Source: Oceanibacterium hippocampi
GTDB taxonomy: Bacteria; Pseudomonadota; Alphaproteobacteria; Sneathiellales; Sneathiellaceae
DNA length: 64,000 nt
Reading direction: 5' to 3'
NCBI RefSeq assembly: GCF_900172325.1
Contig: NZ_FWFR01000002.1
Coordinates: forward strand, 744,001 to 808,000
Each line of letters opens with the position of its first letter. The first letter of the stretch is position 1. The translations under genes were made by a program, and so were the position numbers. A model generated the notes under the pieces. That model saw only the letters and a program-made list of their open reading frames with translations. It searched no databases and had not been told where the DNA came from. Shown here in pieces: positions 15,147-33,257 of the stretch.

Positions 15147-16142
15147 TCAATCCTCCAGTACGGCGATCACCTCGGCGATCTGGTCGCCCGAATAGACCGG
15201 CATGTAGCGTTTCCGGATCGAACCGATCCAGCCGCGTCCGATCGGCGATGTCACGGTCTCGATGACGTCGCCGTAGGGATTGAGAAGTCGCCCGAGTGCC
15301 TGGCCCTCGTCGACCACCTCGCCGGCCTCGACCGCGGGCTCGAAGAATCCGCCGAGCTTGCTGTAAACCAGCAGCGCATTGTCCATGACCCGGTAGCTGC
15401 CCTGGCGCGGCGCCTTGCCCGGCAGGATGCCGAGCGCCGTCGCAATGCCGGTGATCGCCGTCTCGAAGCTCTTCACATGGGCTTCGGGCAGGCCGCCGCC
15501 ACCGCCGCATTCGATGATCAGCGAAGGGATGCCGCGCGCCGTCATGTTGGTGAACATGGCGCCCTTCAGCCAGCCATCGGTCGACGCCCAGATGTCCGGC
15601 GTGCCGGCCGCCTCGGCCAGCTCATGGGACTTGCGGGCCGCTGCCGAACCGTCGTTCCGGTACAGCGCGTAGAACGGCACCAGCGACCGGTCCCCGCCGG
15701 AATGCAGGTCCAGCATGGCATCGGCAACCGCGCTCGCCGCCTCGAAGAGGTAATGCGCGGTCTGCTGGCTGTGCGGACCGGCCGGCGCGCCGGGGAAGAT
15801 GCGGTTCAGATTCTCGCCGTCCAGCGGCGTGTTCCGGGAATATTCCCGGAAGCCGTTCGGGTTCGCCAGCATGACGGCGACGATGGTGCCGCTCATCGTC
15901 GTCAGGTCGATCCCGTTAAGGACCCGCTGCAGGGCCACCGGCCCACCGATTTCCGGCCCGTGGATGCAGCCCTGTGCCCACAGCACCGGCCCGGGCTTCG
16001 CCCCGCAAGCGATCATGACCGGCGAGGTGATGGGGGAATCCGGGAAATGGCCGAGAAGCAGTTCGCCGCGGGTGATCTTGCCGGGCTCTGCCTTTGCGGT
16101 TCCGACAGCGATCGTGCCGTGGCGCTGTTCCATGATTGTCAT
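15147..16142 (-). CDS. Succinylglutamate desuccinylase/aspartoacylase (AstE/AspA) family deacylase, copy 1
   Basis: The ATG at 16142, 8 nt after GGAGG, gives 331 residues (a GTG 6 nt upstream is possible). Zinc ligands are visible in CIHGPEIGG (His61, Glu64) and LDLHSGGD (His147); the catalytic glutamate is in SLIIECGGGGG. The family removes acyl groups from amino acids, as in succinylglutamate, N-acetylaspartate or N-acetyl-diaminobutyrate (DoeB/EutE). The last about 80 residues resemble a biotinyl/lipoyl-like beta domain found in this subfamily. It ends an operon with three paralogues, an amidohydrolase and a Pot-like ABC transporter. It pairs with copy 2 by shared GTAKAE, HSGGD and ECGGGG motifs. 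All key residues are kept. Confidence 0.9.
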   Translation of the reverse strand: MTIMEQRHGTIAVGTAKAEPGKITRGELLLGHFPDSPITSPVMIACGAKPGPVLWAQGCIHGPEIGGPVALQRVLNGIDLTTMSGTIVAVMLANPNGFREYSRNTPLDGENLNRIFPGAPAGPHSQQTAHYLFEAASAVADAMLDLHSGGDRSLVPFYALYRNDGSAAARKSHELAEAAGTPDIWASTDGWLKGAMFTNMTARGIPSLIIECGGGGGLPEAHVKSFETAITGIATALGILPGKAPRQGSYRVMDNALLVYSKLGGFFEPAVEAGEVVDEGQALGRLLNPYGDVIETVTSPIGRGWIGSIRKRYMPVYSGDQIAEVIAVLED

Positions 16143-16184
16143 TGTCACGTCCTCCGTGTGCGGCCCTTGCAGGCGGTCCGCCGG

Positions 16185-17168
16185 TTATCGGGAAACCACC
16201 AGGTTGCATTCCGCGCACATCGATCCGGAATAGACCGGGTAATAGGGCCGGATCAGGGCCGCCAGATAGGCCGGTCCGTTCGGGGATCGGATCTCCTCGA
16301 CGATATTGCCGTAGACATCCATGATCTCGGCGATGACAGTACCCTTCTCGACGATGTCGCCGACCTCCGCCTTCGGCAGGAAATAGCCGCCCTGGCGGTT
16401 GAAGACGAGTTCGCACTCCGTGACTTCCGTGTATTTCGGAAAGGTCGGCGCCTCGCCGGGCAGGATCCCCAGCGTCTGCGCGACGCCCTTCACGGCGCCC
16501 CGGAAATTGTCGATATGCTCTTCCGGCATGGCGCCGCCGCCGCCGCATTCGACGATTACCGCCGGCTTGCCCCGCAGCGTCACGTTGACGAACATTGCCC
16601 CCTTCAGCCAGTCGTCGCCGGACCGCCAGACGACCGGCGAGCCGACCGCGCGCGCAAGCTTGGCCGACGTCTTCGAGGCCGGCGAGCCGTCGTCCCAGTA
16701 GAGGCCGTAGAACGGCACGACCGCCCCGTCACCGCCGGAATGGGTGTCGATCACCGCGTCGGCGACCTCCATCGCGGTCTGGAACAGCACGTTCGCCGAC
16801 TGCCGGGAATGGGGACCGTCCGGATCGCCCGGGAACAGCCGGTTCATGTTCTCGCCGTCCAGCGGGGTGTTTCGGGTATAGCCCCGGAAGGCGCCCGGAT
16901 TGGCCGCCATGATGCCGACGATGGCGCCACTCATCTGGCTCAGGTCGAGCTCCTTGAAGAGCTTGAGGATACCCAGCGCGCCGCCGATCTCGGTACCGTG
17001 GATCGCCGACTGCACCCACAGCACCGGGCCGGGTTTCCCGCCGCAGGCGATGTTCACCGGCGTGGTGATCGGACCATCCGGAAAATGTCCGAGCGTCAAC
17101 GTGCCGGTCGTCCACTTGCCGGCCTCGGCCTTTGCCGTACCCACTGAAAAATTCTGGCTGTCCGTCAT
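16185..17168 (-). CDS. AstE/AspA family deacylase, copy 2
   Basis: I use the ATG at 17168 (MTDSQNFSVGTAKAEAGKW), 8 nt after GGGAG, giving 327 residues; a longer in-frame extension runs into the amidohydrolase gene and is unsupported. Zinc ligands are in AIHGTEIGG (His57, Glu60) and IDTHSGGD (His143), with the catalytic Glu in VIVECGGGGA. It is the closest sister of copy 1 (same GTAKAE start, NTPLDGEN-NR-FPG, HSGGD, ECGGGG). It hydrolyses an N-acyl bond in family terms. It lies 42 nt upstream of copy 1 and 23 nt downstream of the amidohydrolase gene. Two closely related copies in a row suggest a recent tandem duplication with divergence in substrate or a heteromeric enzyme. Confidence 0.9.
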   Translation of the reverse strand: MTDSQNFSVGTAKAEAGKWTTGTLTLGHFPDGPITTPVNIACGGKPGPVLWVQSAIHGTEIGGALGILKLFKELDLSQMSGAIVGIMAANPGAFRGYTRNTPLDGENMNRLFPGDPDGPHSRQSANVLFQTAMEVADAVIDTHSGGDGAVVPFYGLYWDDGSPASKTSAKLARAVGSPVVWRSGDDWLKGAMFVNVTLRGKPAVIVECGGGGAMPEEHIDNFRGAVKGVAQTLGILPGEAPTFPKYTEVTECELVFNRQGGYFLPKAEVGDIVEKGTVIAEIMDVYGNIVEEIRSPNGPAYLAALIRPYYPVYSGSMCAECNLVVSR

Positions 17169-17191
17169 AATCGATACTCCCTGCGGGTTTC

Positions 17192-18442
17192 TCAGTGGCG
17201 GAAGGCGCGGCCGCCGGCGGCGACTTCCTGTCCGGCGATCAGCACATGTCGCATGTTGCCCGGCACCTCGAGGACGCGGACATTGGAGACCACGTCGCCC
17301 TCGACGACGATCACGTCGCCGAGCATGCCCTCCTCGACCGTGCCGACATCGGTGGCCTTCAACAGCTTGGCGGTGTTCCGGGTCGAGACCTCGATCGCCT
17401 GAACCGGGTCGAGGCCGCATTTCACGAACTGCACGACCTCGCGGCCGGCCGAGCCGTGCGGCGTCAGCAGCGACCCGGCATCCGTCCCGCAGGCGATATT
17501 GGCGCCGATGTCATAGGCATACTTCACGTATTCATGATGCTTCGTGGTCCGCTCGCGGACGTTGGCGATCATAAAGTCGGCGATTCCGGCCTGGGCGCCG
17601 TGCACCATGATGCGGTCCATCACGGTCAGCGTCGGCACCAGGAAGGTGCCATGCTCGCGGGCCGCCTCGGCGCACTCCTCGTCGAAATGCATGCCGTGTT
17701 CGATCGAGCGGCATCCGGCGCGGATGCTGCGCAGGATCGCCGTCTTGTTATGCGCATGCACGGCGACCGGCAGCCCCATGGTGGTCGCCGTCGAGACCGC
17801 CGTGTCGAACTCGTCGGGCATGAATTCCTCGGCCTCGATCCTGCCATGCGGATCGACCACACCGCCGGTCTGGAACAGCTTGATCCAGGTGGCGCCGGTC
17901 TTTGCCTGGACGCGGATCGCCTTGCGGATCGCGTCGGGCCCGTCGACCATCTCGGAAATGTCGCCATGCGACTGGCAGAGCCAACAGGGCATGATGTCGC
18001 CGTGCCCGCCGGTCGTCGTCAGGCCCTTGCCGCAGGGATGGATGCGCGGGCCGACGATCTTGCCCTGCGCGATCGCGTTGCGGGCGGCGATGTCGAGGTG
18101 GGCAAGGTCGCTGACGGTGCGGATGGTCGTCACCCCGCCGGCAACGGTGTCGGCCAGGTTGTTGGCAACCTCGAAGGCCGCCTCGCCCACCGGGCGCGCG
18201 GTCATTTCCTTCAGCAGGTCGGACGGCGCGCTGAGCGAGATATGCACATGCACGTCCATCAGGCCGGGCATGACGCTGGCCCCGTTGGCCTCGATCACCC
18301 GGTCGGCGCGCGGCATCGCCTTGCCGTTCTTCTTGCCGGCGAAGGTGATGCGGCCGTCCTCGATGACGACGACGCTGTCGGGCACGGGGTCGGCACCGGT
18401 GCCGTCAACCAGCAGACCGCCGATGATTGCCGTTGTCGTCAT
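17192..18442 (-). CDS. Amidohydrolase superfamily metal-dependent hydrolase (imidazolonepropionase/prolidase-like)
   Basis: This 416-residue protein begins with a small beta domain (GGLLVDGTGADP) and then PGLMDVHVHISL, where His65 and His67 are the HxH metal ligands on strand 1 of the TIM barrel. Further ligands appear in VAVHAHNK and IEHGMHF, and the catalytic aspartate in CGTDAGSLLTPHG. The pattern fits the cluster of amidohydrolases that includes imidazolonepropionase, Xaa-Pro/Xaa-Arg dipeptidases and carboxypeptidase-like enzymes, which cut C-N bonds of cyclic or linear amides. It sits between the two AstE/AspA pairs, 1 nt from copy 3 and 23 nt from copy 2. I infer one hydrolytic step in the same pathway. 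Confidence 0.88.
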   Translation of the reverse strand: MTTTAIIGGLLVDGTGADPVPDSVVVIEDGRITFAGKKNGKAMPRADRVIEANGASVMPGLMDVHVHISLSAPSDLLKEMTARPVGEAAFEVANNLADTVAGGVTTIRTVSDLAHLDIAARNAIAQGKIVGPRIHPCGKGLTTTGGHGDIMPCWLCQSHGDISEMVDGPDAIRKAIRVQAKTGATWIKLFQTGGVVDPHGRIEAEEFMPDEFDTAVSTATTMGLPVAVHAHNKTAILRSIRAGCRSIEHGMHFDEECAEAAREHGTFLVPTLTVMDRIMVHGAQAGIADFMIANVRERTTKHHEYVKYAYDIGANIACGTDAGSLLTPHGSAGREVVQFVKCGLDPVQAIEVSTRNTAKLLKATDVGTVEEGMLGDVIVVEGDVVSNVRVLEVPGNMRHVLIAGQEVAAGGRAFRH

Positions 18443-18443
18443 G

Positions 18444-19424
18444 TCATGATTCCCGGGGGTTGAGGCCGATATGAACCAGGGTCGCCCCGTTGTTCATGAT
18501 CGGGCCTGGATGAATGGCGAGCACGGTGCCCTTGTGCGGGCTCTCGGCAACGCCGTCGGGCTCGCCGTAGATGTTGTAGAAATGCCCGAGCACGGTGCCG
18601 ACCTCGAGGGCATCGCCGCAGTTGACGGCGCGGATGAACAGGCCGCCGCGCGGCGCCGTTACCCAGGCGAAATCGGCGAAGTCCGCGATTCCGCCGTAAT
18701 CGACGACCTTGCCTTCGAGCATGCCGAGGTGACGCATGACATTGGCGAAGCGTTCGGCCCCGTCGGCGACGCCTTCCTTGGTGAAGGAGAAGCCCTTGCC
18801 GCCCGATTCAACGATGAAGCCCGGGATGCCGTCCTTCGCCGCCGTCATCATGGCCGAGCCGGCCAGCAGGTGCGGCGGCGTCGCCAGCGTCGAGTGGAAG
18901 CCCCAGGCAAGGGCCACGCCGCGACCGGTTTCCGAGACCTTGCCACCCATGTCGGCATAAAGCGCCCAGCGCACGTCCGAGGTCATCGCCGTGTGGAAAT
19001 CGAGGAACACGTCGGCGTGCTTCTTCAGGTTGCTGTAGACGTGATGGGCCATCTGCATGGTCAGCGAGCCGTTCGGATCGCCGGGAAAGCAGCGGTTCAT
19101 GTCACCGCCGCCATAGCCCTCGAACGGGCTCATCCGCTGGTCGCGGTGGAACGCGGTGATGTTGAGCGCCGGCAGCGCGATGACCGTGCCCGACATCGCT
19201 GCCGGGTCGAGGGCGCGCAACGCCTTCAGGATGATGAAGGTGCCGCAATACTCGTTGCCGTGTACGCAGCCATGCACCCAGAGCGTCTTGCCGGGCTTCG
19301 CGCCACGAACGATGACCACCGGGGTCTCCATCGGTCGTCCGTCCGGATAATCCGCGAATTTCAGTTTGCCGGTAGCAATCCCGGGCGCGGTGGATACCGC
19401 GCTGCCCAAGCGAATTTCGTCCAT
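18444..19424 (-). CDS. AstE/AspA family deacylase, copy 3
   Basis: The ATG at 19424 lies 6 nt after GGGGGAGG and gives 326 residues (MDEIRLGSAV); the ATG at 19430 abuts that site too closely. Zinc ligands are in CVHGNEYCG (His55, Glu58) and LDFHTAM (His144); the catalytic Glu is in FIVESGGKG. It shares YCGTFII, QRMSP, GGGDMNRCFPG and FHTA with copy 4 and so forms subfamily B, distinct from copies 1 and 2. The C-terminus ends HIGLNPRE, parallel to HIGLDPRK of copy 4. All catalytic residues are retained. Role: zinc-dependent removal of an acyl group in the cytoplasm; no signal peptide is visible. Confidence 0.9.
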   Translation of the reverse strand: MDEIRLGSAVSTAPGIATGKLKFADYPDGRPMETPVVIVRGAKPGKTLWVHGCVHGNEYCGTFIILKALRALDPAAMSGTVIALPALNITAFHRDQRMSPFEGYGGGDMNRCFPGDPNGSLTMQMAHHVYSNLKKHADVFLDFHTAMTSDVRWALYADMGGKVSETGRGVALAWGFHSTLATPPHLLAGSAMMTAAKDGIPGFIVESGGKGFSFTKEGVADGAERFANVMRHLGMLEGKVVDYGGIADFADFAWVTAPRGGLFIRAVNCGDALEVGTVLGHFYNIYGEPDGVAESPHKGTVLAIHPGPIMNNGATLVHIGLNPRES

Positions 19425-19482
19425 TGTCATCCTCCCCCTCGACGGGCGGCCCCTCGAGGCCGCACCGCCGGAATAGCCTGCG

Positions 19483-20469
19483 TCAGACCTTGCGCGGATC
19501 CAGACCGATATGAATGAGGGTCGCTCCCTGCGGCATGGTCGGCCCCGGATGGATGGCCAGCGCCACGCCACCGTGCGTTGCCTTGGCCTCGCCGATCTTC
19601 TCTCCGAAGGTGTTGAAGTAGGTGCCGAGCACCTGCCCCTTCTCGATCCGGTCGCCGCACTTGACGAGTGGCTCGTAGAGCCCGCCACCGGTCGTCGAGA
19701 CCCAGGCGAAGTTCGAGAAATAGGTAAGCGGCCCGTAATCGGTCACCGCGCCGTCCATCAGGCCGAGTGCCCGCATCACGTTGCGCAGGCGTTCGGCGCC
19801 GTCCTCCAGCGTGGCGCGATCGAAACCGGCGCCCATGCCGCCGGATTCGACGATGAGGCAGGGAATGCCGTCGTTCGCCGCGACCTGCATGGCCGCGCCC
19901 TGGAGGATGTCGGCCGGCGCCGGCAGGGTGGAATCGAAGCCGAAGGCGCGCGCCATCTTCTCGGCCATCTCGCCAACCTTGCCGTCGCGCTTCGAGAACA
20001 GCTGCCAGCGGGTGTCGGGCGTGAAGGCGGTGTGGAAGTCGATCAGGTAGTCGGCATATTCCTTCAGCGGCGTGTAGATCGCGTAGGCCATCTGTTCGGT
20101 GACCGAGCCGTCGACCTTGCCGGGGAAGCAGCGGTTCAGGTCGCCGCCGCCGAACGCCTCGTAGGGGCTCATCCGCTGGTTCTTCAGGAACGCCGTCAGG
20201 TTGAGGATCGGCAGGGCGACGACCGTGCCCTTGATCTTCTTCGGGTCGAGGCTCCGCATCAGTTCGTGGATGATGAAGGTGCCGCAGTATTCGTCGCCAT
20301 GGACGCAACCGTGCATCCAGAGCACCGGCCCGTCGGTCTCACCCCGGGCGATGATCACCGGGATCTCGACCGGATCGCCGTCCGGATGACTGCCGACCCG
20401 CAGGGTTCCCTTGACGATGCCCGGCCCGGTGGATTTCGCGGTGCCGACGCTTATGGTTTTCATGTTCAT
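19483..20469 (-). CDS. AstE/AspA family deacylase, copy 4
   Basis: This 328-residue zinc hydrolase has ligands in CVHGDEYCG (His57, Glu60) and IDFHTAF (His146) and the catalytic Glu in LIVESGGMG. The ATG at 20463 (MKTISVGTAK) is an equally good start. It is the first enzyme gene after the Pot-like transporter and is separated from the permease gene by a 66 nt spacer with a small GC hairpin. With copy 3 it forms a closely related pair. N-acetyl-diaminobutyrate deacetylases of ectoine catabolism (DoeB/EutE) belong to this family, as do succinylglutamate and aspartoacylase enzymes; which of these activities applies cannot be read directly. Confidence 0.9.
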   Translation of the reverse strand: MNMKTISVGTAKSTGPGIVKGTLRVGSHPDGDPVEIPVIIARGETDGPVLWMHGCVHGDEYCGTFIIHELMRSLDPKKIKGTVVALPILNLTAFLKNQRMSPYEAFGGGDLNRCFPGKVDGSVTEQMAYAIYTPLKEYADYLIDFHTAFTPDTRWQLFSKRDGKVGEMAEKMARAFGFDSTLPAPADILQGAAMQVAANDGIPCLIVESGGMGAGFDRATLEDGAERLRNVMRALGLMDGAVTDYGPLTYFSNFAWVSTTGGGLYEPLVKCGDRIEKGQVLGTYFNTFGEKIGEAKATHGGVALAIHPGPTMPQGATLIHIGLDPRKV

Positions 20470-20500
20470 GTCCCAATCGCTACGTGTTGGATTTCAAGAC

Positions 20501-20517
20501 CGCCGGCGGGGCCGGCG
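20501..20517 (-). promoter_or_regulatory. Small GC hairpin between permease and deacylase genes
   Basis: CGCCGGC (20501-20507) and GCCGGCG (20511-20517) enclose a GGG loop in the spacer between the transporter genes and the first deacylase gene. It has no T-run. It may protect or separate segments of the long operon transcript. Confidence 0.35.
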
Positions 20518-20535
20518 TGATTCGGAAGGCCGGAG

Positions 20536-21408
20536 TCAGACGCGCATGATCTTGCGCAGCCCGACCAGCCGCTCGATCACCAGGCCGAGCACGACAATCA
20601 TCAGGATTTGCAAGGTCGTGATCGCGGCGATCACCGGGGTACTTTCCCACTGCATGTACGAGAAGATCTCGATCGGCAGCGTCGTCATGCCGGGGCCCGA
20701 CAGGAACAGCGCGATATAGACGTCGCCGAAGGAAATGATGAAGGCGAAGATCAGCGCCGACAGCATGCCGGGCGCGATCAGCGGAATGACGATTTCGACG
20801 AGAACGCGGAAGCGCGAGGCGCCGAGGGTGAGGGCCGCGAGTTCGAGTTGCTTGTCGACGCCCTCGAGGCTTGCCGTGATGCCGGCGATCGTGAACGGCA
20901 GGCAGATGATGGTGTGGCCGACGATCAGCGCCGTCATTTCGGGGATCGGCAGGACGGTCAGCAGAAGCAGCAGCGAGATGCTGATCAGGATATGCGGGAT
21001 CATGACCGGCAGCATCGCCAGTGATTGGCCAAGCTCGCGCTTCTTCGTCAGGAACCGGGTGATTCCGTAGGCGGTGAAGAAGCCGATCACCGTTGCCGCG
21101 ACGGCGGCGATCAGGCCGAGCCAGAGGCTGAACTGGAAGGCCGAGGTGAAACCCGAACTTTCGAAGAATGCGCCGTACCAGCGCAACGAGAACCCGCTCG
21201 GCGGAAAGGTGTTCGCGGTCGTCGGATTGAAGGAGGTGAAGACGACGATGATGATCGGCGACAGCAGGAAGACGTAGATCGCGGTCACCAGGATACCCAT
21301 CGATACCCGGCGCAAGTATCCGAACTCCATCGTCGGCTGGGAGATCGTGCCCTTCGTGTAGCCACGGCGGTCGTCGCCGGGCATCGTTTCGCTGGCGTTA
21401 CTGCGCAC
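20536..21408 (-). CDS. ABC transporter permease, PotC-like
   Basis: The frame opens with GTG at 21408 and gives 290 residues; about 35 residues precede the first membrane helix (SMGILVTAIYVFLLSPIIIVVF). The PotC-type FTSFNP...GFSLRWYGAFF motif and an EAA-like loop (ELAALTLGASRFRVLVEIVIPL) are visible. It overlaps the end of the upstream PotB-like gene by 11 nt. It would form the membrane channel for the solute later processed by the AstE/AspA, amidohydrolase and other hydrolases of this locus. Length is slightly above the family mean because of the N-terminal extension; a downstream ATG near MEFGYLRR (residue 27) could be the true start. Confidence 0.9.
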   Translation of the reverse strand: MRSNASETMPGDDRRGYTKGTISQPTMEFGYLRRVSMGILVTAIYVFLLSPIIIVVFTSFNPTTANTFPPSGFSLRWYGAFFESSGFTSAFQFSLWLGLIAAVAATVIGFFTAYGITRFLTKKRELGQSLAMLPVMIPHILISISLLLLLTVLPIPEMTALIVGHTIICLPFTIAGITASLEGVDKQLELAALTLGASRFRVLVEIVIPLIAPGMLSALIFAFIISFGDVYIALFLSGPGMTTLPIEIFSYMQWESTPVIAAITTLQILMIVVLGLVIERLVGLRKIMRV

Positions 21409-22249
21409 GGCTGCGTCCTCCGCGGAAATACAGGAAGATGATCGAGAACTGGCAGAACACGAGAACGAACGCGGTCGCAGAAGCGAGCGGCCAGTTGAGC
21501 GTCGAGGTGACGAGTTCGTAGATCTGCTGACCGATCATCTGGACGTCCTTGCCGCCCAGCAGCGCCGGCGTCACCACCGAGCCCGCGGTCAGCGTGAAGA
21601 CCAGGGCGGCGCCCATGATGATCCCCGACCGGCTCATCGGCAGGGTCACCTCGATGAAGGTCCGCACCCGGCCCGCGCCAAGCGTGCTCGCGGCGCGCTC
21701 GACATCCGGGTCCTGCGAGGCCAGGGATGAGAACAACGGGAAGACCATGTAGGGCATCAGGATGTGGACGAGTGCCAGCAGCACCGCCAGTTCGGTCCCG
21801 AGAATGGTGGCCGGCTCTGACAGGAAGCCGAGCGTCATCAGCACCTTGTTGACGGCACCTTCGCGGCCGAGCAGGACGATCCAGCCGTAGGTCCGGACGA
21901 TCACGCCGGTCATCAGCGGCGCGATCACCAGGAACATCAGCACGCCCCGCCAGGCGGATTTCGTGCGGGCCAGAAAATAAGCCAGCGGATAACCGAGCAC
22001 GAGGCTGAAAAACGCGGTCAGGAAGGCGATCTTCAGGGTCCGCAGGATGATCGTCTGGTAGTAGCCGTCGAACAGCAGGCGGGCGAAATTCTCGCCCGTG
22101 ACGACCGGCGCATACATGTTGAAGGCGTCGTACTTGAACAGGCTCATCAGCAGGAAGAAGCTGATCGGCGCCAGCAGGAACAGGACATAGAGGATCGTGA
22201 TCGGTCCCAGCATGATGCGGGAAAAGGCTTTCTCGCCGCCGGTCCGCAT
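21398..22249 (-). CDS. ABC transporter permease, PotB-like
   Basis: This 283-residue permease has six membrane segments, the first at about residues 14-36 (ITILYVLFLLAPISFFLLMSL), then FNMYAPVVTGENFARLLFDG as the periplasmic loop. The EAA-like motif ERAASTLGAGRVRTFIEVTLPMS lies near residues 182-204 (here read as ERAASTLGAGRVRTF plus EVTLPM). The start codon is 1 nt from the stop of the ATPase gene, so both are co-translated. It is the second gene of the permease pair in the Pot-like transporter of the central catabolic locus. Confidence 0.9.
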   Translation of the reverse strand: MRTGGEKAFSRIMLGPITILYVLFLLAPISFFLLMSLFKYDAFNMYAPVVTGENFARLLFDGYYQTIILRTLKIAFLTAFFSLVLGYPLAYFLARTKSAWRGVLMFLVIAPLMTGVIVRTYGWIVLLGREGAVNKVLMTLGFLSEPATILGTELAVLLALVHILMPYMVFPLFSSLASQDPDVERAASTLGAGRVRTFIEVTLPMSRSGIIMGAALVFTLTAGSVVTPALLGGKDVQMIGQQIYELVTSTLNWPLASATAFVLVFCQFSIIFLYFRGGRSRAQ

Positions 22250-22250
22250 G

Positions 22251-24514: not shown

Positions 24515-24542
24515 CCCTGAATCACTCACCCCGAATTCAGGG
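24515..24542 (-). terminator. Hairpin at the end of the IclR gene
   Basis: CCCTGAAT (24515-24522) and ATTCAGGG (24535-24542) form an 8 bp stem with a 12 nt loop that spans the IclR stop codon. On the minus strand it is followed by GTTTAAG, a weak T-stretch. It may attenuate readthrough from the regulator gene into the transporter operon. Confidence 0.45.
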
Positions 24543-25429: not shown

Positions 25430-25461
25430 TGTTCCATATACAGCAACCATGTTCCATATAC
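25430..25461. promoter_or_regulatory. Tandem direct repeat TGTTCCATATAC, candidate IclR operator
   Basis: TGTTCCATATAC occurs at 25430-25441 and again at 25450-25461, a 20 bp period (two DNA turns), in the 205 nt spacer between the divergent IclR and M20 genes. GTTCC-type half-sites are common in IclR-family operators. The repeats lie in the most AT-rich part of the spacer. A weak minus-strand promoter (TTGCTG, 16 nt, TAAAAC) overlaps them, so binding could repress the IclR/transporter unit and affect the divergent unit. Confidence 0.6.
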
Positions 25462-25578
25462 GGTACGATCGCTTGCACGGCCTGTCAATAACCCCGTATC
25501 CTCGCATCACGCGGGGACACCCCGGACGGCCCATCGACCATTCGGAAGGGCAGCCGGGACCATGAACTGGGGGGTTTT

Positions 25579-26802
25579 ATGGTGGACAGCACCGGGTCAT
25601 CGATACCGATCGCCGAGCGCAAGGAGGCACTCGACTTCCTCGCCGGCATGATCCGCCACAAGAGCTACTCCGGTACGCCGGGCGAGGAAGCCCTGGCCCG
25701 GCACATGGTCGAGCGGATGCGGTCGCTCGGCATGGCGGCGGAGTTGCAGCCTGTCGAAGGCGGACGGTTCAACGCGATCGGCCGGCTGAAAGGCGAAGGT
25801 GGCGGCGCCAGCCTGCTCTTCAATGGCCACCTGGACACCAATCCGGCGACCGACGACTGGACCGTCGACCCCTGGGGCGGGCTACAGGACGACGATTTCA
25901 TCTACGGCATCGGCGTTTCCAACATGAAGGCCGGCGACGCGGCCGCCTTCATGGCGGTCAAGACCCTGCTCGACAGCGGCGTGCGGCTGAAGGGCGACAT
26001 CGTCCTGGAATATGTCGTCGGCGAATTGCAGGGCGGCATCGGCACCGTCGCCGCGATCGAGCAGGGCGTGCGCGCCGACTATTTCATCAACATGGAACCG
26101 ACCGACCTGAACGGCCTGACACTCCATGCCGGCGCCTTCAACTTCGCGATCGAGCTGCGCGGCATCACCCGCCATATCTCGAAGCGCGAGGAAGCCGTCG
26201 ACGCGATACTCGCCGCCTGCGACCTGGCACCGCGAATCGCCGCGATCACCTTTTCCGGCGCGGCGAACGACGAGCACCGGACGGTCAACCGGGCCAATGT
26301 CGGCGTGCTCCGCGGCTCCCTCACCCCCGATTTCCACGACTGGCGGCCACCGCAGGTCGCGGACTTCGCCCGGCTCGTCGGGACCGCCCGCTATGCGCCA
26401 AGCCAGAACGAGGACGGCGTGCTCGCCGACCTGCGTTCGCTGCTCGACGATCTGCAGCGGCGCTTCCCCGGGCTCCGCGCCGAGGTAAGGAAGGAATTCG
26501 GCAGTCACCGGATCAGCATGCTGCCGTTCGAGGTCGCGAAGGATGCCCGGATCGTCCGAACGGTCGATGCCGCCCACCGCGCCGTTCGCGGCAGCGCCCT
26601 GCCGACCGGCCCGATCCGGCCCTACTGCTATTACGGCACGGACGCGGCGCATCTGCTGCACCGCGCCGGCATGGAGGGCATCGTCTGCGGGCCGGGCGGC
26701 AAGTACAACACCATGCCGGACGAACGCGTCGACATACCGGACTATCTCGACATGATCGAGATCTACACCCGCTCGATCCTCGATATCTGCGAGAGAGCCT
26801 GA
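25579..26802 (+). CDS. M20 family zinc hydrolase (ArgE/DapE/carboxypeptidase-like)
   Basis: This 407-residue protein has the M20 metal-site layout: LFNGHLDTNPATDDW (first His ligand and the following Asp), the bridging region IYGIGVSNMKAGDAAA (usually GRGxxDMKGG), and VVGELQGGIGTVAAIE where the catalytic and ligand glutamates normally lie in the pattern EE; here a single Glu in GELQ is visible. The C-terminal CYYGTDAAHLL and CGPGGKYNTMPDERVD supply the last His/Glu region, although the usual His in GPG..xxAH reads GGKYNTMPDE. M20 enzymes cleave N-acyl or N-carbamoyl amino acids and peptides. It starts the divergent unit with HyuA and HyuB. Several metal-ligand positions look altered, so activity may be unusual. 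Confidence 0.85.
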   Translation: MVDSTGSSIPIAERKEALDFLAGMIRHKSYSGTPGEEALARHMVERMRSLGMAAELQPVEGGRFNAIGRLKGEGGGASLLFNGHLDTNPATDDWTVDPWGGLQDDDFIYGIGVSNMKAGDAAAFMAVKTLLDSGVRLKGDIVLEYVVGELQGGIGTVAAIEQGVRADYFINMEPTDLNGLTLHAGAFNFAIELRGITRHISKREEAVDAILAACDLAPRIAAITFSGAANDEHRTVNRANVGVLRGSLTPDFHDWRPPQVADFARLVGTARYAPSQNEDGVLADLRSLLDDLQRRFPGLRAEVRKEFGSHRISMLPFEVAKDARIVRTVDAAHRAVRGSALPTGPIRPYCYYGTDAAHLLHRAGMEGIVCGPGGKYNTMPDERVDIPDYLDMIEIYTRSILDICERA

Positions 26803-26877
26803 CGTCCCCACCCTTCGGACAATCCACTTATTCTTCCAGGCTTCGGGTCGACCGGGCCCGAACATCAGGTGAGTAGC

Positions 26878-28941
26878 ATGCCCAGGAATGAAACGCGTAT
26901 CGGCATCGACATCGGCGGAACCTTCACCGATTTCGCCATCTGGCAGGGCGATGCCGCCGGCTATGTCAGCATCGCCACGCACAAGGTTCCGTCGACCCCG
27001 CCGGAGTTCGCGCAGGCGGTCATCAACGGCCTGGAAGACATCATCGCCCGCCACGGGATCGCACCGGACGACCCGGTGACGATCGTCCATGGCACCACGG
27101 TCAGCACGAACGCGGTGATCGAACGCCGCGGCCCGAGCATGGCCTTCCTGACGACGCGGGGTTTTCGCGACCTGCTCGGCCTCGGCCGGCTCAGGCTCGA
27201 CCGCCCGGTCGACATCTTCAACCAGCGCCCCCTGCCGCTGGTGCCGCGCAGGCATGTCTTCGAGATCGACGAGCGTATCCTGGCCGACGGTTCGATCGAC
27301 CGCGCGCTCCAGGCCGACGAGGTGGCGCGCGCCGTGAAGACGGCCGTGGCCCAGGGGGTCGAGGCGATCGGCATCTGCTTCCTGCATGCCTTTCGGAACC
27401 CGGCGCACGAACAGGCAGCCCTCGCCGCTGCCCGGGCGGCGGCCCCCGATGTCGAGATCATCGCCTCGCACGAGGTCTGGCCCCAGGAAGGCGAGTATGA
27501 ACGCGCCATCGTGACCCTGCTGAACGCCTTCGTTCGCCGGGTCATGGACGGCTATATCGGCGAAATCGAGACTTACCTGGAGAAGCGCCTCGGCAACGCC
27601 CGGCTGTTCATCACCAAGTCGAACGGCGGCGTGATGGCGGCGGGCGACGCACGCCGCTTCCCGGTCCATACCCTGCTTTCCGGCCCGGCTGCCGGCGTCA
27701 GCGCGGCGCGCTATCTCGGAAGCGCGCTCGACAGCGGCGACGTGCTGACGATGGACATGGGCGGGACCAGCACCGACATGTCCCTGATCCGCGACGGCCA
27801 GGCCATGACGTCCACCGAATCGCGGGTTGGCGATTTCCCGCTGATGATGCCGGTCACGGCGATCGAGGCGCTCGGCGCCGGCGGCGGCTCGCTCGTCCGC
27901 ATGGACGGACCCGTGCTCAAGGTCGGCCCGGGCAGCGCCGGCGCAACCCCCGGTCCGGCCTGCTACGGCCTCGGCGGCACCGAACCGACGCTGTCGGACG
28001 CCTATCTGCTGTCCGGCTATCTGAACCCGGATTCGCTGCTGGGCGGGCGTATGCCGATGCGCGCCGACCTGGCGGAGCAGGCCTTCGGACCGATCGCGGC
28101 CACCCTCGGCATGTCCGTCGCCGACACCGCCGAGGCCTGCATCAAGGTCGCCACCTCGAACATGCTGGCAAGCGTCCTGCCCTTCCTCGCCCGGCTCGGC
28201 GTCAACCCGACCGATCTCAGCCTGATGATCTTCGGTGGCGCCGGTGGCATTCACGGCCCGCTGCTGGCCGAGGAAGTCGGCATCCGCCGGATCATCGTGC
28301 CACGCACGCCGTCGGTCTTCTGCGCCCTTGGCTGCCTAGTCTCGGAACTGCGGCACGATCTGGTGCAGAGCGTGCATGGCGCAACCCCCGACGAATCCGG
28401 GGTGCGGACGATCTTCGCGGCCCTGAAAGGCGAAGCAGACCGCTGGCTCGAGACGCAGACGCATGGCCATGCGACCGAGTCGGTCGCCTACATGCCGCAG
28501 GCGGACATGCGCTACCTGGGCCAGTCCTTCCAGGTCACCGCGCCCTTGCCGCAGAATGCGCTCGACCAGCCGGACATGGCGACGATCGCCGAGGCGTTCC
28601 ACGCGGAACACCAGCGCCTGTTCGGCCATTCCGATCCGACCGCGCCCGTCGAATTCACCGATTTGCGGCTGACGCTGGTGGCGACAATGGCACGGCCCGA
28701 GGCGACCGCGACGCTCGCCGCCGGGACCGCGCCGCCGGCGCCGAAGCGGACCCGCGCGGTCCGTTTCCGCACCGGGCCGGTTGCCGAAACGCCGGTCTTC
28801 GCGCGCGAAGATCTCGCCGCCGGCGACCGCCTGCAGGGCCCGGCAATCATCGAGCAGGCCGACGCCACCATCGTGGTGCCGCCGGGATACGACGCCGAAG
28901 TGGGACGCTTCGGCGATTTGATGCTGACGATGGAGCGCTGA
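26878..28941 (+). CDS. hyuA: Hydantoinase/oxoprolinase subunit A (HyuA)
   Basis: The ATG at 26878, 4-5 nt after AGGTGAG, gives 687 residues; a GTG three codons earlier is less likely. The N-terminal ATPase-like fold opens RIGIDIGGTFTDFAIWQ, followed by VHGTTVSTNAVIERRG (about 60-75) and the second phosphate loop LTMDMGGTSTDMSLI near 290. HyuA works with HyuB to hydrolyse cyclic amides such as N-methylhydantoin or 5-oxoproline, with ATP cleavage. The next gene, hyuB, begins 1 nt after its stop. With the upstream M20 gene it forms an operon divergent from the IclR gene. A ring-opening step in the central catabolic route is the natural inference. Confidence 0.93.
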   Translation: MPRNETRIGIDIGGTFTDFAIWQGDAAGYVSIATHKVPSTPPEFAQAVINGLEDIIARHGIAPDDPVTIVHGTTVSTNAVIERRGPSMAFLTTRGFRDLLGLGRLRLDRPVDIFNQRPLPLVPRRHVFEIDERILADGSIDRALQADEVARAVKTAVAQGVEAIGICFLHAFRNPAHEQAALAAARAAAPDVEIIASHEVWPQEGEYERAIVTLLNAFVRRVMDGYIGEIETYLEKRLGNARLFITKSNGGVMAAGDARRFPVHTLLSGPAAGVSAARYLGSALDSGDVLTMDMGGTSTDMSLIRDGQAMTSTESRVGDFPLMMPVTAIEALGAGGGSLVRMDGPVLKVGPGSAGATPGPACYGLGGTEPTLSDAYLLSGYLNPDSLLGGRMPMRADLAEQAFGPIAATLGMSVADTAEACIKVATSNMLASVLPFLARLGVNPTDLSLMIFGGAGGIHGPLLAEEVGIRRIIVPRTPSVFCALGCLVSELRHDLVQSVHGATPDESGVRTIFAALKGEADRWLETQTHGHATESVAYMPQADMRYLGQSFQVTAPLPQNALDQPDMATIAEAFHAEHQRLFGHSDPTAPVEFTDLRLTLVATMARPEATATLAAGTAPPAPKRTRAVRFRTGPVAETPVFAREDLAAGDRLQGPAIIEQADATIVVPPGYDAEVGRFGDLMLTMER

Positions 28942-28942
28942 C

Positions 28943-30928
28943 ATGGACCCCGTACGCACCGAGATCATGAAGAACCGCTTCGCTGCGATCGCCGAGGAAG
29001 CGGCCTCCATCGCCTATCGCACGGCGCACACGACCTACGTCAAGCAGACACAGGATTTCCAGTGCGCGCTGGCGACACGAGACGGCCATTTCTTCGCCTT
29101 TCCGAGACTGAGCGGGGTGACCACCAGCGTCGGGCAGAACATCCGCACGACGGTCGACCTGATCGGCGAGGACAACCTGGCGCCCGGCGACGTGATCATC
29201 ACCAACGACCCCTTCGGCACTCAGGGCCTCTGCACGCATACGATGGACGTGCATCTGATCCGCCCGATCTTCCGCGACGGCCGGCTGCTCTGCCATGCGT
29301 GGTCGTTCATCCATGCCTCCGACATCGGCGGCGCGGTGCCGGGAAGCATTTCACCGGTCAATTCCGAGGTCTACCAGGAAGGCATCCGGCTTCGTGCGGT
29401 GAAGCTCTACGACCGGAGCGTCCTGAACAGCGACGTGCTCAACGTCTTTCTCGACAATTCCCGGATTCCCGACCTGATCTGGGGCGACATCAAGGCCATG
29501 CTGGCCGGCATGAAGACGCTCGATCGTCGGGTCAACGAGCTCTGCGACCGCTATGGCGAGGATGAATTCCAGACCGGGATCGAGGAAGTGCTCGACTTCG
29601 CGGAACTGAAGGCGCGCGGCGTCATCGCCGAGATCCCGGACGGCGAATATGCCTTCAGCGATTATCTGGAGGGCTATTCACCGGGCGAGTTCATCTTCCT
29701 CCACGCCGCCCTGAAGATCGCCGGCGACCAGGCCTCGATCGACTTCGCCGGCAGCGATCCGCAGGTCCAGTACGCCCTCAATTTCACTAGCAGCAGCGGC
29801 GTGCATCCGTTCCTCTGCCTGGCGCTCACCAACTATATCCATACCCGAGTCCCGGACATCCCGATGAACGGCGGGATCATGCGGCCGATCCGCACCAGTT
29901 CGCCCAAGGGCACGATCATGAACGCGGAATTCCCGGCGGCGATGGGCAACCGCTGGGTCACCGCGATGCGGATGTATGACGTGATCCTCGGTTGCCTGGC
30001 GCAGGCCGTGCCGGGCGGCCTTGCCGCTGCCGGTGCCGGGCAGGCCGGCATCATCTCCGTCTCGGGACGCGATCACACGACCGGCCTGCGCCGGGTCAGC
30101 GTCGTCGAACCGATCGTCGGCGGCTCCGGCGCCCGCGCCGGGCTGGACGGTATCGACGGCACCGACATACCGATCGCCTTCCTCAGAAGCGCGCCGTTCG
30201 AATATGTCGAGATCGAAACGCCGCTGATCATGCGCCGCTACAGCCTCGGAACCGATCTGCATGGCAAGGGCCGGACGCGGGGCGGCGGCGGCGTCGTCAC
30301 CGACATGGAGAACGGCGACGTCGAGGCGGTGATCACCGTCCGCGGTCTGGACAGGACCGTCTTCGCGCCCTGGGGATTCGAAGGCGGCACGGCCGGCACC
30401 TCCGGCACCGCGATCTTCAACCCGGACGGCGATGCCCCGGAAGAACTCGGCAAGGTCAAGGTTCTCGACCTCAGGCAGGGCGACGTGCTGCGCCTCATCA
30501 CCCCGTCCGGCGGCGGCTTCGGCGACCCGCTGGAGCGGGATCCGGCGCGGGTCCTGGAGGATGTGCGGGACGGATTCGTGAGCCTCGAAAGCGCCGCGCG
30601 CGACTACGGCGTAACCATCGTCGATGACGCGGTCGATGACGCGGCAACCGACGCCCTGCGGGCGCGGATACGCGACGGGCGCAAGGCACGGGCCGGCGCC
30701 TTCGATCTCGGCGACGGCCGCCGGACCTTCGAAAAGGTCTGGCCCGAGCAGGCAAGCGTCGCCCTGGCGCTCGCGGTTTTCGACGTCGAGCCCGGCCTGC
30801 GTCCGCATGTCCTGCGGGCTGTCCGGGCCCGCTTCAGCGAGGCGGAGCCGGCCACGCCCGAGGCCGCCCGCGCCGCCGTCGGCGACTGGGTCGCCCGGCT
30901 CGGTCGCGCACGGGCGGCGGTCGCCTGA
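28943..30928 (+). CDS. hyuB: Hydantoinase/oxoprolinase subunit B (HyuB)
   Basis: This 661-residue protein has HyuB markers: DPVRTEIMKNRFAAIAEEA at the N-terminus, DVIITNDPFGTQGLCTHTMD near 87-106, the region WSFIHASDIGG and the C-terminal glycine-rich TPSGGGFGDPLERDPARVLED. HyuB is the second subunit of ATP-dependent hydantoinases, 5-oxoprolinases and acetone carboxylase-like enzymes. It is a little longer than usual (about 550-600) because of a 60-70 residue C-terminal tail rich in Ala and Arg that resembles decayed or species-specific sequence. It converges with the M24 gene pair. Subunit pairing with the adjacent HyuA is clear. Confidence 0.93.
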   Translation: MDPVRTEIMKNRFAAIAEEAASIAYRTAHTTYVKQTQDFQCALATRDGHFFAFPRLSGVTTSVGQNIRTTVDLIGEDNLAPGDVIITNDPFGTQGLCTHTMDVHLIRPIFRDGRLLCHAWSFIHASDIGGAVPGSISPVNSEVYQEGIRLRAVKLYDRSVLNSDVLNVFLDNSRIPDLIWGDIKAMLAGMKTLDRRVNELCDRYGEDEFQTGIEEVLDFAELKARGVIAEIPDGEYAFSDYLEGYSPGEFIFLHAALKIAGDQASIDFAGSDPQVQYALNFTSSSGVHPFLCLALTNYIHTRVPDIPMNGGIMRPIRTSSPKGTIMNAEFPAAMGNRWVTAMRMYDVILGCLAQAVPGGLAAAGAGQAGIISVSGRDHTTGLRRVSVVEPIVGGSGARAGLDGIDGTDIPIAFLRSAPFEYVEIETPLIMRRYSLGTDLHGKGRTRGGGGVVTDMENGDVEAVITVRGLDRTVFAPWGFEGGTAGTSGTAIFNPDGDAPEELGKVKVLDLRQGDVLRLITPSGGGFGDPLERDPARVLEDVRDGFVSLESAARDYGVTIVDDAVDDAATDALRARIRDGRKARAGAFDLGDGRRTFEKVWPEQASVALALAVFDVEPGLRPHVLRAVRARFSEAEPATPEAARAAVGDWVARLGRARAAVA

Positions 30929-30938
30929 TCCACGGCCG

Positions 30939-30956
30939 GGGCGGCACCGGCCGCCC
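30939..30956. terminator. Compact GC hairpin between convergent genes
   Basis: GGGCGGC (30939-30945), loop ACCG, and GCCGCCC (30950-30956) form a 7 bp stem in the 43 nt between hyuB and the convergent M24 gene. It lacks a T-run but its place suggests bidirectional termination. Confidence 0.45.
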
Positions 30957-30971
30957 GGACCGGTTCGCTTG

Positions 30972-32105
30972 CTACCCGTCGATCTCGGGCGCTTGCGACG
31001 CCCGGGTCAGACGCTCGGCCCCGGCCTCGCCGACCAGAAAGCTGTCGCCCAGCACCATGACGCGATTGCCCGCGAGATCGCGGATCGCCGCCTCCAGGTA
31101 GACGCAGGCGCCTGCCGGCAGGCAGGCGTCTTCGCCGGGCCGAAGATAGGGCCAGTCGGCCTCGCTCGGCGCATAGATCGCGCCCAGCCCGTGCCCGGAT
31201 ACGCGGACGCCGTCGCCAGCGTCGACGGCCGCGACATCGCCGGCCACGACCCCCGGCCGCAACAGGCCGGCGGCCGTTTCCTGGGCCGCGCGGACCCGTT
31301 CGAACAGTTCCCGCCCCGCGCGGTCCCGCGGCGCCAGGACCAGTGTCCGCGCGATCCCCGCATGATAGCGGAGCGACGATCCGGCAAGGCCGAGGAACAG
31401 CGGATCTCCCTCCGCCAGCACCCGTCGCCCCGAATGACCGTTCGGCGCGGCCGCCTCGGGGCCGGAGCCGATCACCGGTTCCCACGCCGCCGGCATCCCG
31501 CCCGCGCGCAGCATGTCCGCCTGCATGCGGCCGACGATCAGGGCCTCCTCCACATCCGGCCGGGCGAGACTTCGGGCCGTCGCGATCGCCTGGTCGGCGC
31601 GGGCGGCGGCGGCACGGGTCAGGGCAATCTCGGCCGGGGTCTTGGCAGCCCGCAAGCCATCGACCAGCCGGGAGGCGTCAACCAGGTCGCAGAACCCGCC
31701 GCAGGCCTCGGCCAGCTGTCGCCAGACGAAGGCCGTCATGCCGAAACAGTCCCGTTCCACGCCGAGCCGCTTCTCGGCGAGCCCCTTCTCGGCCAGCAGA
31801 TCGCGGAGCATCTCGCCCGGCCCCTGTCCCTGCCCGTCCAGCCAGACCCGGATGTCGGGAATGTCCGACGTGATGCGCGCCTGGCGCAGGTCCGGCAAGC
31901 GCGACAGCAGCGCCAGGTCCCCGTCCCCTGTCAGCAGCAGGCACTGGAAATAGGTATGCGCCCCGGAATCGTAACCGGTCAGGTAATAGCGGCTATCCTG
32001 CTTGAACAGCACGAGGGCATCAAGCCCCTCCTCTGCCATCGCCGCGACCGCCCGCGCCTGCCGGGCGGCGAATTCCGCCGGCGGGAAATGTGCGATATCC
32101 GCCAT
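30972..32105 (-). CDS. M24 (pita-bread) family protein with degenerate metal site, copy 1
   Basis: The 377-residue protein has an N-terminal creatinase/prolidase domain (residues 1-150, with VLFKQDSRYYLTGYDSGAH) and a C-terminal pita-bread domain. In Xaa-Pro peptidases five ligands (D, D, H, E, E) hold two metals. Here the first Asp reads Gly (FLGLAG), the second reads Gly (HAGIART), His305 in GHGLG and Glu338 (VYLEAAI) remain, and the final Glu reads Gly (VLGDSF). Loss of metal ligands is typical of creatinase- and ectoine-hydrolase-like members, which cleave C-N bonds without a metal. It is 3 nt downstream of a second M24 gene and convergent with hyuB. Confidence 0.85.
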   Translation of the reverse strand: MADIAHFPPAEFAARQARAVAAMAEEGLDALVLFKQDSRYYLTGYDSGAHTYFQCLLLTGDGDLALLSRLPDLRQARITSDIPDIRVWLDGQGQGPGEMLRDLLAEKGLAEKRLGVERDCFGMTAFVWRQLAEACGGFCDLVDASRLVDGLRAAKTPAEIALTRAAAARADQAIATARSLARPDVEEALIVGRMQADMLRAGGMPAAWEPVIGSGPEAAAPNGHSGRRVLAEGDPLFLGLAGSSLRYHAGIARTLVLAPRDRAGRELFERVRAAQETAAGLLRPGVVAGDVAAVDAGDGVRVSGHGLGAIYAPSEADWPYLRPGEDACLPAGACVYLEAAIRDLAGNRVMVLGDSFLVGEAGAERLTRASQAPEIDG

Positions 32106-32108
32106 CCT

Positions 32109-33257
32109 CTAGGCCTCCACCAGTTCGCGCGGCATGCGGGTCAACGTCTCGCAGCCCCGTTCCGTGACCAGCGCGGTCTCGCCCAGCGACATTGCGAGCC
32201 CGCGGTCGTGGTCGACCAGGATCATGTGCATGAAGAAGACCATGCCCGGCAGGACCGGCGCGTCGTTGCCGGAATAGAGCATCGGATAGTCCATCCATGT
32301 CGCCCCGTAGGTCGCCCCGAGGCTGTAGCCGCAGGCTTTCAGGCGATAGGCCTCGTAGCCGGCGGCGTCGAAGACACGGGCATGGGCGTCGAAGATATCG
32401 CCGGCCGTGGCGCCCGGCCGGCAGGCGTCCTGGCAGGCCGCGATCGCCTCCGCGCAGGCGTCGAACATCGCCCGTTGGCGCGCCCCGGCGCGGCCGGTGA
32501 GAAGCACCCGCATCAGGCAGGCATGATAGCGCCGATAGGCGGCGCCGAACTCGAGCTGCAACTGATCGTTCGCGTCCAGCGTTCGGTATCCCGCATGGCC
32601 GCGCACCAGCAGCGCCGAACGACCGGACCCCATGACGAAGCCGTTGGCGAGATCGCCGCCGCCGGCCAGCACCGCACCGCTCATCGCCGCGGCGATGGCG
32701 CCCTCGTCGGCACCGGCACGGGTTTCGGCGATCGCCGCCGCCAGCGAATCGTCGGCAAGCGCCGCCGCCTGCCGTACACAGGCAATCTCGGCCGCGCTCT
32801 TCACCACGCGCAACCGGTCGATCAGGCGCGACGCGTCGGAAAGACGACAAAGCTCTCCGCATGTCCGCTCGATCGCTGCCCAGAGCGCCGCGTTGATGCC
32901 CCAGGCGTCGAGTTCGATGCCGACGCGCTTTCCGCCGAGCCCCTTCTCCCGCAGGACGTCGGCGAGCGCGCCCGCCGGATCGGCCGTGGCCGTCCAGGGC
33001 AGGCAGCGGATATCATCGATTCCGGATGTCAGGCGTGCCTGCGGCAGATCGATCTCGTATAGAAGAAGTGCGAGGTCGCCGTTATCCTGCAACAAGAGCA
33101 CCTGGAAGCGGCAATAGGCAGAGCCATCGCAACCGGTCAGATAGTAAAGGCTCTCCTGCCGGAACATGAGTAGCGCTTCGAGACCTTCATGCCCCATTTC
33201 TTCTATTGCGCGGGTCTTTCGGGACGCGAATTCTGCCGATTCGAAATGCAGGGGCAC
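32109..33257 (-). CDS. M24 (pita-bread) family protein with degenerate metal site, copy 2
   Basis: This 382-residue protein starts with GTG at 33257, 6 nt after GGAGAG. The N-terminal domain carries MFRQESLYYLTGCDGSAY, parallel to copy 1. In the pita-bread domain the metal positions are mostly changed: Glu236 (LEFGA) and a hydrophobic residue in place of the two Asp, Tyr311 in CGYSLGATY instead of the usual His, His344 for the first Glu, and only Glu360 (LGETALV) kept. Both copies share RYHA near the normal second Asp. The CGYSLGATY...PGMVFF pattern is close to what I recall for ectoine-hydrolase-type (DoeA/EutD) M24 proteins. It is divergent from an aldo/keto reductase gene by 51 nt. Confidence 0.85.
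   Translation of the reverse strand: MPLHFESAEFASRKTRAIEEMGHEGLEALLMFRQESLYYLTGCDGSAYCRFQVLLLQDNGDLALLLYEIDLPQARLTSGIDDIRCLPWTATADPAGALADVLREKGLGGKRVGIELDAWGINAALWAAIERTCGELCRLSDASRLIDRLRVVKSAAEIACVRQAAALADDSLAAAIAETRAGADEGAIAAAMSGAVLAGGGDLANGFVMGSGRSALLVRGHAGYRTLDANDQLQLEFGAAYRRYHACLMRVLLTGRAGARQRAMFDACAEAIAACQDACRPGATAGDIFDAHARVFDAAGYEAYRLKACGYSLGATYGATWMDYPMLYSGNDAPVLPGMVFFMHMILVDHDRGLAMSLGETALVTERGCETLTRMPRELVEA

Follow-up and report, generated by a model that had tools for sequence, protein, structure and literature searches.

Ectoine catabolism, in which a metal-poor hydrolase of the M24 family (DoeA/EutD) is paired with AstE/AspA-type deacylases (DoeB/EutE), and the opine regions of Ti plasmids, with their hydantoinase-like HyuAB genes, are among the described systems closest to a gene cluster at positions 15147-33257 of the window analysed here, a 64,000-nt stretch of a 4.83-Mb alphaproteobacterial genome. 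The cluster (Table 1) combines, under an IclR-family regulator, an ATP-binding cassette (ABC) importer of the PotABCD type, four AstE/AspA-type zinc deacylases, an amidohydrolase (amdH), an M20-family protein (M20b), HyuAB and two M24 proteins (M24a and M24b). Pfam and NCBIfam scans of this interval confirmed all of these genes, as listed in a preliminary description of the DNA, on the strands given there. An importer and hydrolases under IclR control are of an ordinary kind; their combination here is not, nor are the expanded set of deacylases and the altered M20 and M24 proteins. The locus is genuine and partly conserved, and no description of it turned up in the literature searched; in that literature, which covered few subscription papers, neither the core operon nor the M20b-M24 operons described below have been given a substrate. 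Judging from the sequence, we give slightly better than even chances to a system under IclR control that takes up a small carboxylated N-acyl compound, of the opine or peptide-conjugate type and able to exist as a lactam, and hydrolyses it in steps.

The constant part of the system is a core operon, whose gene order was read by tblastn of the window proteins onto the loci of relatives. The order iclR-sbp-potA-permB-permC-deacB-deacB is the same in five other alphaproteobacterial genomes: a metagenome-assembled genome (L014), Microvirga antarctica (L015), Mesorhizobium microcysteis (L016), G377 (L019/L020) and G067 (L022/L023). In a sixth, G295, a 6-kb contig (L021) carries permB-permC-deacB-deacB-deacA only. 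Identity to the window proteins across the core loci ranges from 39% (IclR) to 81% (permC). The next gene is amdH in G067, G377 and L014 (where the stretch ends inside it); L015, L016 and L021 lack it there. The gene deacA follows as one copy each in L015, G377 and G295 and as two in G067, the L014 stretch being cut. The core operon is rare. Matches to deacB4 were found in 4 of 385 genomes of the class (E <= 1e-50, own genome included), 1 of 398 of the phylum (1e-70) and 1 of 25 of the order (1e-60), the last two being the own genome, and in 1 of 11 genomes of the family of G377 (1e-70), G377 itself; the host family sample consists of 25 genomes in two genera. A scan of genome contigs, which returns close relatives only, gave five loci, four of them with the core (L017 is a G377 contig); the fifth, L018 (Bacteroidetes, 28%), was left out of the core comparison. 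Such a patchy presence suggests horizontal spread of the core. Downstream of the Microvirga core (L015 12038-19566) are genes for an ApbA reductase, a short-chain dehydrogenase/reductase, an M28 peptidase and a second Pot-like importer.

In the window, the genes from iclR to the last deacylase form a minus-strand unit with intergenic gaps of -11 to 66 bp, the divergent unit begins 205 bp from iclR, and in-frame third-position GC is high for all genes (0.73-0.89). Between iclR and M20b lie two copies of a 13-bp motif, GTTCCATATACAG and GTTCCATATACGG, 20 bp apart. They are its only two exact matches in the own genome, which has 4 matches at <=1 mismatch (6 for the reversed control pattern). The motif was derived from the window and tested on five other iclR genes. 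Its best match in the 150 bp before iclR has 2 mismatches in L014, L015 and L016, 3 in L019 and 4 in L022; among 400 random stretches per locus, 0.75%, 1%, 0%, 1% and 7.75%, respectively, did as well. The related sites at four of the five other iclR genes support a predicted, operator-like function.

The preliminary description spoke of four deacylase paralogues. Four AstE_AspA_cat proteins are indeed present; they fall into two lineages, each a tandem pair: lineage A (deacA1 and deacA2, 53% identical) and lineage B (deacB3 and deacB4, 55%), with 31-32% identity between them. Two of the open reading frames (ORFs), of 411 and 414 aa, were started too early: their N-terminal extensions overlap the upstream genes, and tblastn against relatives places the starts of deacA2 and deacB3 near 17168 and 19424, so that all four proteins are about 326-333 aa long. 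All four score above the PF24827 cut-off and have the HxxE, H and catalytic Glu of the AstE/AspA zinc deacylase superfamily; a PF04952 search of the own genome gave no match, since PF24827 is the family that the deacylases hit. Every one of the 27 aligned deacylases keeps HxxE, NR, the third His and the catalytic Glu. A 27-row tree separates lineages A and B and leaves several other forks unresolved. Within lineage B, L014 and G377 pair first copy with first copy (100/99) and second with second (96/85), and L015 and L016 group likewise, copy by copy (100/99, 100/100). At least some of the tandem copies are thus old and retained across several loci, which argues for separate roles.

Relatives of the deacylases are scarce on plasmids (2 of 72,556 records at E <= 1e-40). 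The Cytobacillus oceanisediminis plasmid has three deacylases with an M20 protein and an Opp importer, and Pukyongiella litopenaei p5 (L075) has two with an amidohydrolase and an ABC importer. All but one of these deacylases are 35-44% identical to lineage A. Both operons resemble the window in their multiple deacylases, M20 or amidohydrolase and ABC importer; they differ in importer family, and no HyuAB or M24 is annotated in the stretches read. Since these relatives go with Opp/Dpp-type importers, the deacylase set is not bound to one importer type. G253 has a single deacA beside another Pot-like importer, on a contig ending there. The Pukyongiella plasmid is 16.6 kb in size and typed mobilizable, and its operon adjoins replication and mobilization genes. 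AmdH is related to Xaa-Pro dipeptidase and Arg carboxypeptidase by its PDB matches, and its HxH, K, H, H and D are kept in 5/5 aligned sequences.

An M20 hydrolase had been predicted, and an M20 protein is present; its altered metal site had not been mentioned. Aligned with DapE (7uoi), M20b has Asn115 in place of the bridging Asp, Leu150 in place of the second Glu of the Glu-Glu pair and no His in or around the position of the final His (KYNTMPDE), positions whose roles in M20 enzymes we take to be as named; His84, Glu149 and Glu173 are retained. These changes (N115, E149-L150, no His in KYNTMPDE) set it apart from canonical di-metal M20 deacylases. N115, L150 and N377 are invariant in 6/6 and 7/7 aligned orthologues, in two sets that share two rows. 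Its site is probably single-metal. The M20 enzyme 5-nitroanthranilate aminohydrolase, which reportedly uses one metal, likewise has the Asp-to-Asn change and lacks the second Glu and the last His, although it is only 23-24% identical to M20b. In E-value DapE 7uoi is the nearer sequence (1e-21 versus 5.9e-17). In a Foldseek search with a predicted model, the aminohydrolase gave the best E-values, and some DapE chains had higher TM-scores (0.59-0.66 versus 0.54-0.59). The model (pLDDT 64.8) is poor around residues 110-115, 149-152 and 371-382, and so only the overall fold match was used.

Among the core genomes, G377 has an M20b orthologue (73%) divergent from iclR exactly as in the window, and G067 has one (70%) on the same contig about 25 kb away; none was found at E <= 1e-60 in G295, G771, G772 and G773. 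In three further genomes of the class (G110, G145 and G298) M20b lies in an Opp operon like those on plasmids, described next; G180 has only a weak M20 match (37%). Orthologues occur on 62 plasmid records, seven of whose neighbourhoods were read (Terrarubrum, Pantoea, Rhizobium tumorigenes, Sodalis, Roseomonas, Agrobacterium vitis and Rhizobium sp. SSA_523). An Opp-type importer is directly upstream of M20b in all seven; a second M20 heads six of them, the four aligned being all canonical; and an M24 gene adjoins M20b in five (not in R. tumorigenes or Roseomonas). In four of these five the M24 is distant from those of the window (25-33%), and all four aligned lack both Asp ligands. Operons of this M20a-Opp ABC-M20b-M24(-ddpX) type, with a GntR regulator, in Rhizobium, Pantoea, Sodalis and others, resemble the window in M20b (64-65% identical) and in the often adjoining M24; they differ in their importer and regulator, and no AstE-type deacylase or HyuAB is annotated in the stretches read. 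The SSA_523 operon has the order M24-SBP-permease-permease-ATPase-M20b-M24. Its two M24s, both of the M24a type, match a Terrarubrum pair at 75% and 65% identity; that pair, itself 40% and 43% identical to M24a, flanks an Opp importer with no M20b beside that operon. SSA_523 offers independent support that M20b and an M24 pair work together. By gene neighbourhood, the M20b-M24 link is real and recurs with a different importer, so that the parts look like modules that recombine. On the Terrarubrum flagellatum plasmid (L105), the M24-pair operon adjoins genes for a hydantoinase/carbamoylase amidase and atzE/atzF.

The two M24 proteins had been called metal-less, which holds for most of the positions that we assume to be the M24 ligands. 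By alignment, M24a has lost four of the five and may keep the last Glu; M24b has lost both Asp, has Asp for the last Glu, and keeps one His and one Glu. Glu and His are important in the motif of ectoine hydrolase (DoeA/EutD). M24a has this DoeA-like motif, with the Asp ligands lost and Glu and His kept; M24b lacks the Glu common to M24a and ectoine hydrolase. In the own genome, G377, G771, G773 and G067, the proteins most like M24a (46-54%) are encoded away from the core; the matches in G295 are two pieces (42-45%), and identity in G772 is no higher than 29%. The neighbourhood of the own-genome paralogue is lgt-methyltransferase-pgeF-M24-prs, parts of which are found in G377, G773 and G771, with an annotated example in Rhizobium leguminosarum; it was not seen in the stretches read of G067 and G295. 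The four homologues aligned (own genome, G377, G771 and G773) share a common motif with the Asp ligands gone. The M24 pair thus seems to descend from an ordinary gene of Alphaproteobacteria. The M24 of this neighbourhood is annotated as an Xaa-Pro peptidase (L068, L104), yet lacks the Asp ligands.

HyuA and HyuB have the Hydantoinase_A, Hydant_A_N and Hydantoinase_B domains of the HyuAB/oxoprolinase family and are below the NCBIfam cut-offs for caprolactamase CapAB (481.2 and 254.2 versus 1000 bits each). Microvirga has HyuAB matches of 54-55%, divergent from iclR as in the window; other HyuA in the core genomes match at 41% over the full length or at 43% in two partial matches. In a 30-row HyuA tree, the proteins of the window, the Microvirga operon, a nopaline Ti plasmid and Salipiger form a clade (100/100; window plus Microvirga 86/59); the tree included no biochemically characterised HyuA, and the clade speaks to kinship, not function. 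HyuA matches at E <= 1e-80 occur on 502 plasmid records, 158 of them Agrobacterium. Three of these neighbourhoods were read: on two nopaline Ti plasmids HyuA adjoins noxB-noxA-arc-ocd genes, and the Salipiger region is not an opine region by annotation. The accessible part of PMC6733357 proposes lactam-ring opening as a possible role of HyuAB encoded near opine genes and describes a potABCD-like transporter set beside HyuAB in the succinamopine region of pTiEU6; for rideopine, a like proposal stands in the available text of PMC8554961. According to the portion of PMC10410297 available, two plasmids having the rideopine region are without hydantoinase genes of this kind. Pyronopaline, the lactam of nopaline, is bound and used (PMC4192606, in the text accessible). 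That HyuAB opens lactams is a conjecture in print rather than a finding, and we infer a cyclic substrate from the presence of HyuAB and by analogy with the opine lactams. In place of the opine oxidase of the Ti regions, the cluster has amide hydrolases.

From these parts the following scheme may be drawn. The PotD-type binding protein and its importer, by their families, would take the compound in. HyuAB, if the guess made for its Ti-plasmid clade mates holds, would open the lactam with ATP. The two zinc-deacylase lineages and the amidohydrolase, whose active-site residues are intact, would cut amide bonds in a putative N-acyl substrate, and M20b and the M24a/M24b pair, with their altered sites, may hydrolyse a C-N bond of a derivative. 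The core operon would be the constant part, with M20b/M24 and HyuAB as exchangeable modules added to it. If this is right, a nutrient pathway of its own would lie behind what is now annotated as generic peptidases and deacylases in bacteria of soil, plants and other settings, opine-plasmid HyuAB would be testably linked to lactam catabolism elsewhere, and the chemistry of the M20/M24 set would be unlikely to follow the textbook di-metal mechanism. A wider proposal, possible though doubtful, is an undescribed class of modular uptake-hydrolysis operons across Alphaproteobacteria, Enterobacterales and Bacillota, with expanded AstE/AspA deacylases, altered-site hydrolases (a probably single-metal M20 and metal-poor M24 pairs), varied importers and a common substrate class of natural N-acyl/lactam compounds; the M20b-M24 set would then represent C-N hydrolysis by a pathway of a new type.

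Among better-known substrates, ectoine is suggested by the best PDB matches of M24a (DoeA, 6twk) and deacB4 (DoeB, 6twl) and by the DoeA-like Glu of M24a. It is nevertheless highly improbable that the cluster is a variant ectoine or hydroxyectoine degradation locus: the deacylases reach 90.2, 92.3, 87.3 and 104 bits against a DoeB cut-off of 402.7 (TIGR02994), M24a reaches 142.5 and 117.9 and M24b 106.8 and 73.3 against DoeA cut-offs of 575 (NF038259) and 613 (TIGR02993), and profile scans found no gene like EnuR, Ssd, Atf or the Ehu/Tea importer within 15147-33257. The importer and regulator are of other kinds, and the cluster adds four deacylases, M20b, HyuAB and the amidohydrolase. An ectoine function is rejected at these family cut-offs, and the preliminary description was right to set this catabolic import-plus-hydrolysis locus apart from it. 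Uptake and deacylation of N-acylated polyamines would suit the PotABCD-type importer and is very unlikely on other counts. The binding protein (SBP) scores 54.6 bits against the curated PotD cut-off of 582 (NF007048), and of D168, E171 and D257, presumably the acidic polyamine-contact residues of PotD, it and its five relatives keep E171 alone, the other two positions being non-acidic. Moreover, the deacylases keep their Asn-Arg motif, which in such enzymes binds carboxylate. Together these two features make a carboxylated N-acyl compound likelier than a polyamine, and a plain polyamine substrate is rejected because the contact positions do not fit. To agropine permease the SBP bears only a remote likeness (9.5e-11), and its AlphaFold model (pLDDT 41.8) was too poor and was not used.

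Broad scavenging of peptides or cell-wall fragments, with the hydrolases trimming acylated or D-amino-acid peptides and no lactam specialisation, is rather unlikely, although several kinships point that way: amdH stands near dipeptidases and Arg carboxypeptidase, related deacylase operons have Opp/Dpp-type importers, ddpX follows the M20b operons of Pantoea and Sodalis, and close M24a paralogues adjoin pgeF. HyuAB, however, is not a peptide enzyme family, of the three plasmid neighbourhoods read for its clade two are nopaline regions, and PotD-type importers usually carry small solutes. That the interval holds two or three unrelated neighbouring units, the core function not involving the M24 pair or, perhaps, the divergent arm, is also improbable; it bears on the earlier view of two arms forming one system. 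The conserved order of the importer-deacylase core agrees with that view, but only the window has all parts: across the flanks read, M20b and HyuAB each adjoin the core in just one other locus and the M24 pair in none. Before the M24 pair, moreover, the best match to the operator-like motif (33286-33298) has 3 mismatches, which is explained by chance. Against separate units speak the independent co-occurrence of M20b and an M24 pair in SSA_523, the motif pair shared by iclR and the divergent genes, and the like divergent position of HyuAB in Microvirga. Several further observations weigh against the proposed uptake and hydrolysis of a lactam-forming N-acyl compound by one system. M20b is present in only 3/7 core genomes; the Mesorhizobium core (L016) has no adjacent amdH or deacA; the motif in G067 (L022) is no better than chance; no opine-cleaving oxidase or amino acid catabolic gene is among the genes of 15147-33257; and nopaline-pyronopaline conversion is drawn as spontaneous, not enzymatic, in the accessible part of PMC4192606.

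Table 1. Genes and operator-like sites of the cluster, in window coordinates
Feature	Position	Strand	Evidence
deacA1, AstE/AspA-type zinc deacylase, lineage A, 333 aa	15147..16148	-	PF24827 1.3e-23; HxxE, NR, H, E kept; tree
deacA2, AstE/AspA-type zinc deacylase, lineage A	16185..17168	-	PF24827 4.3e-22; 59-63% matches in G295, G377
amdH, amidohydrolase	17192..18442	-	PF01979 1.5e-38; PDB 9kov, 2qs8, 3mtw
deacB3, AstE/AspA-type zinc deacylase, lineage B	18444..19424	-	PF24827 4.6e-25; active-site residues kept
deacB4, AstE/AspA-type zinc deacylase, lineage B	19483..20469	-	PF24827 1.1e-27; nearest PDB DoeB 6twl
permC, PotC-like ABC permease	20536..21408	-	Family profile scans
permB, PotB-like ABC permease	21398..22249	-	Family profile scans
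potA, PotA/PhnT-like ABC ATPase	22251..23348	-	Family profile scans
SBP, PotD-like periplasmic binding protein	23385..24473	-	Profile scans and PotD alignment; 2/3 acidic polyamine-contact positions not kept
iclR, IclR-family regulator	24537..25373	-	Pfam
Operator-like motif GTTCCATATACAG	25431..25443	+	Exact-match count in genome; related sites before other iclR genes
Operator-like motif GTTCCATATACGG	25451..25463	+	Exact-match count in genome; related sites before other iclR genes
M20b, M20 protein, altered metal site	25579..26802	+	PF01546 3.3e-25; PDB 7uoi, 5k8m; alignments; fold search
HyuA (hydantoinase/oxoprolinase A)	26869..28941	+	Domains; 100/100 clade that includes HyuA of the Microvirga operon, Ti noc and Salipiger
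HyuB (hydantoinase/oxoprolinase B)	28943..30928	+	Domains; 54% match beside Microvirga core
M24b, both Asp ligands gone, DoeA-like Glu absent	30972..32105	-	PF00557/PF01321; alignment
M24a, most metal ligands gone, ectoine-hydrolase-like motif	32109..33257	-	PF00557/PF01321; PDB 6twk; alignment

The surroundings of the cluster hold a few other features. A tRNA-Arg(tcg) of 95 nt called by ARAGORN at 15073-15167, overlapping the end of deacA1, has no Rfam match and is probably spurious. Just past the last deacylase (13074-14582) is an aldehyde dehydrogenase gene whose product scores 822 bits against a cut-off of 730 with the L-piperidine-6-carboxylate dehydrogenase profile, and nearby on the plus strand (12110-12970) is a gene for an M15 D-Ala-D-Ala dipeptidase-like protein; ddpX is also found after M20b-M24 in Pantoea and Sodalis. 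On the other side, a second IclR-headed minus-strand unit (34160-39587) encodes the IclR regulator, a PhyH-type dioxygenase, a polar amino acid ABC importer and a DsbA-like protein, and could be a neighbouring catabolic operon; its dioxygenase is not an ectoine hydroxylase (20.1 bits versus a cut-off of 336.5).

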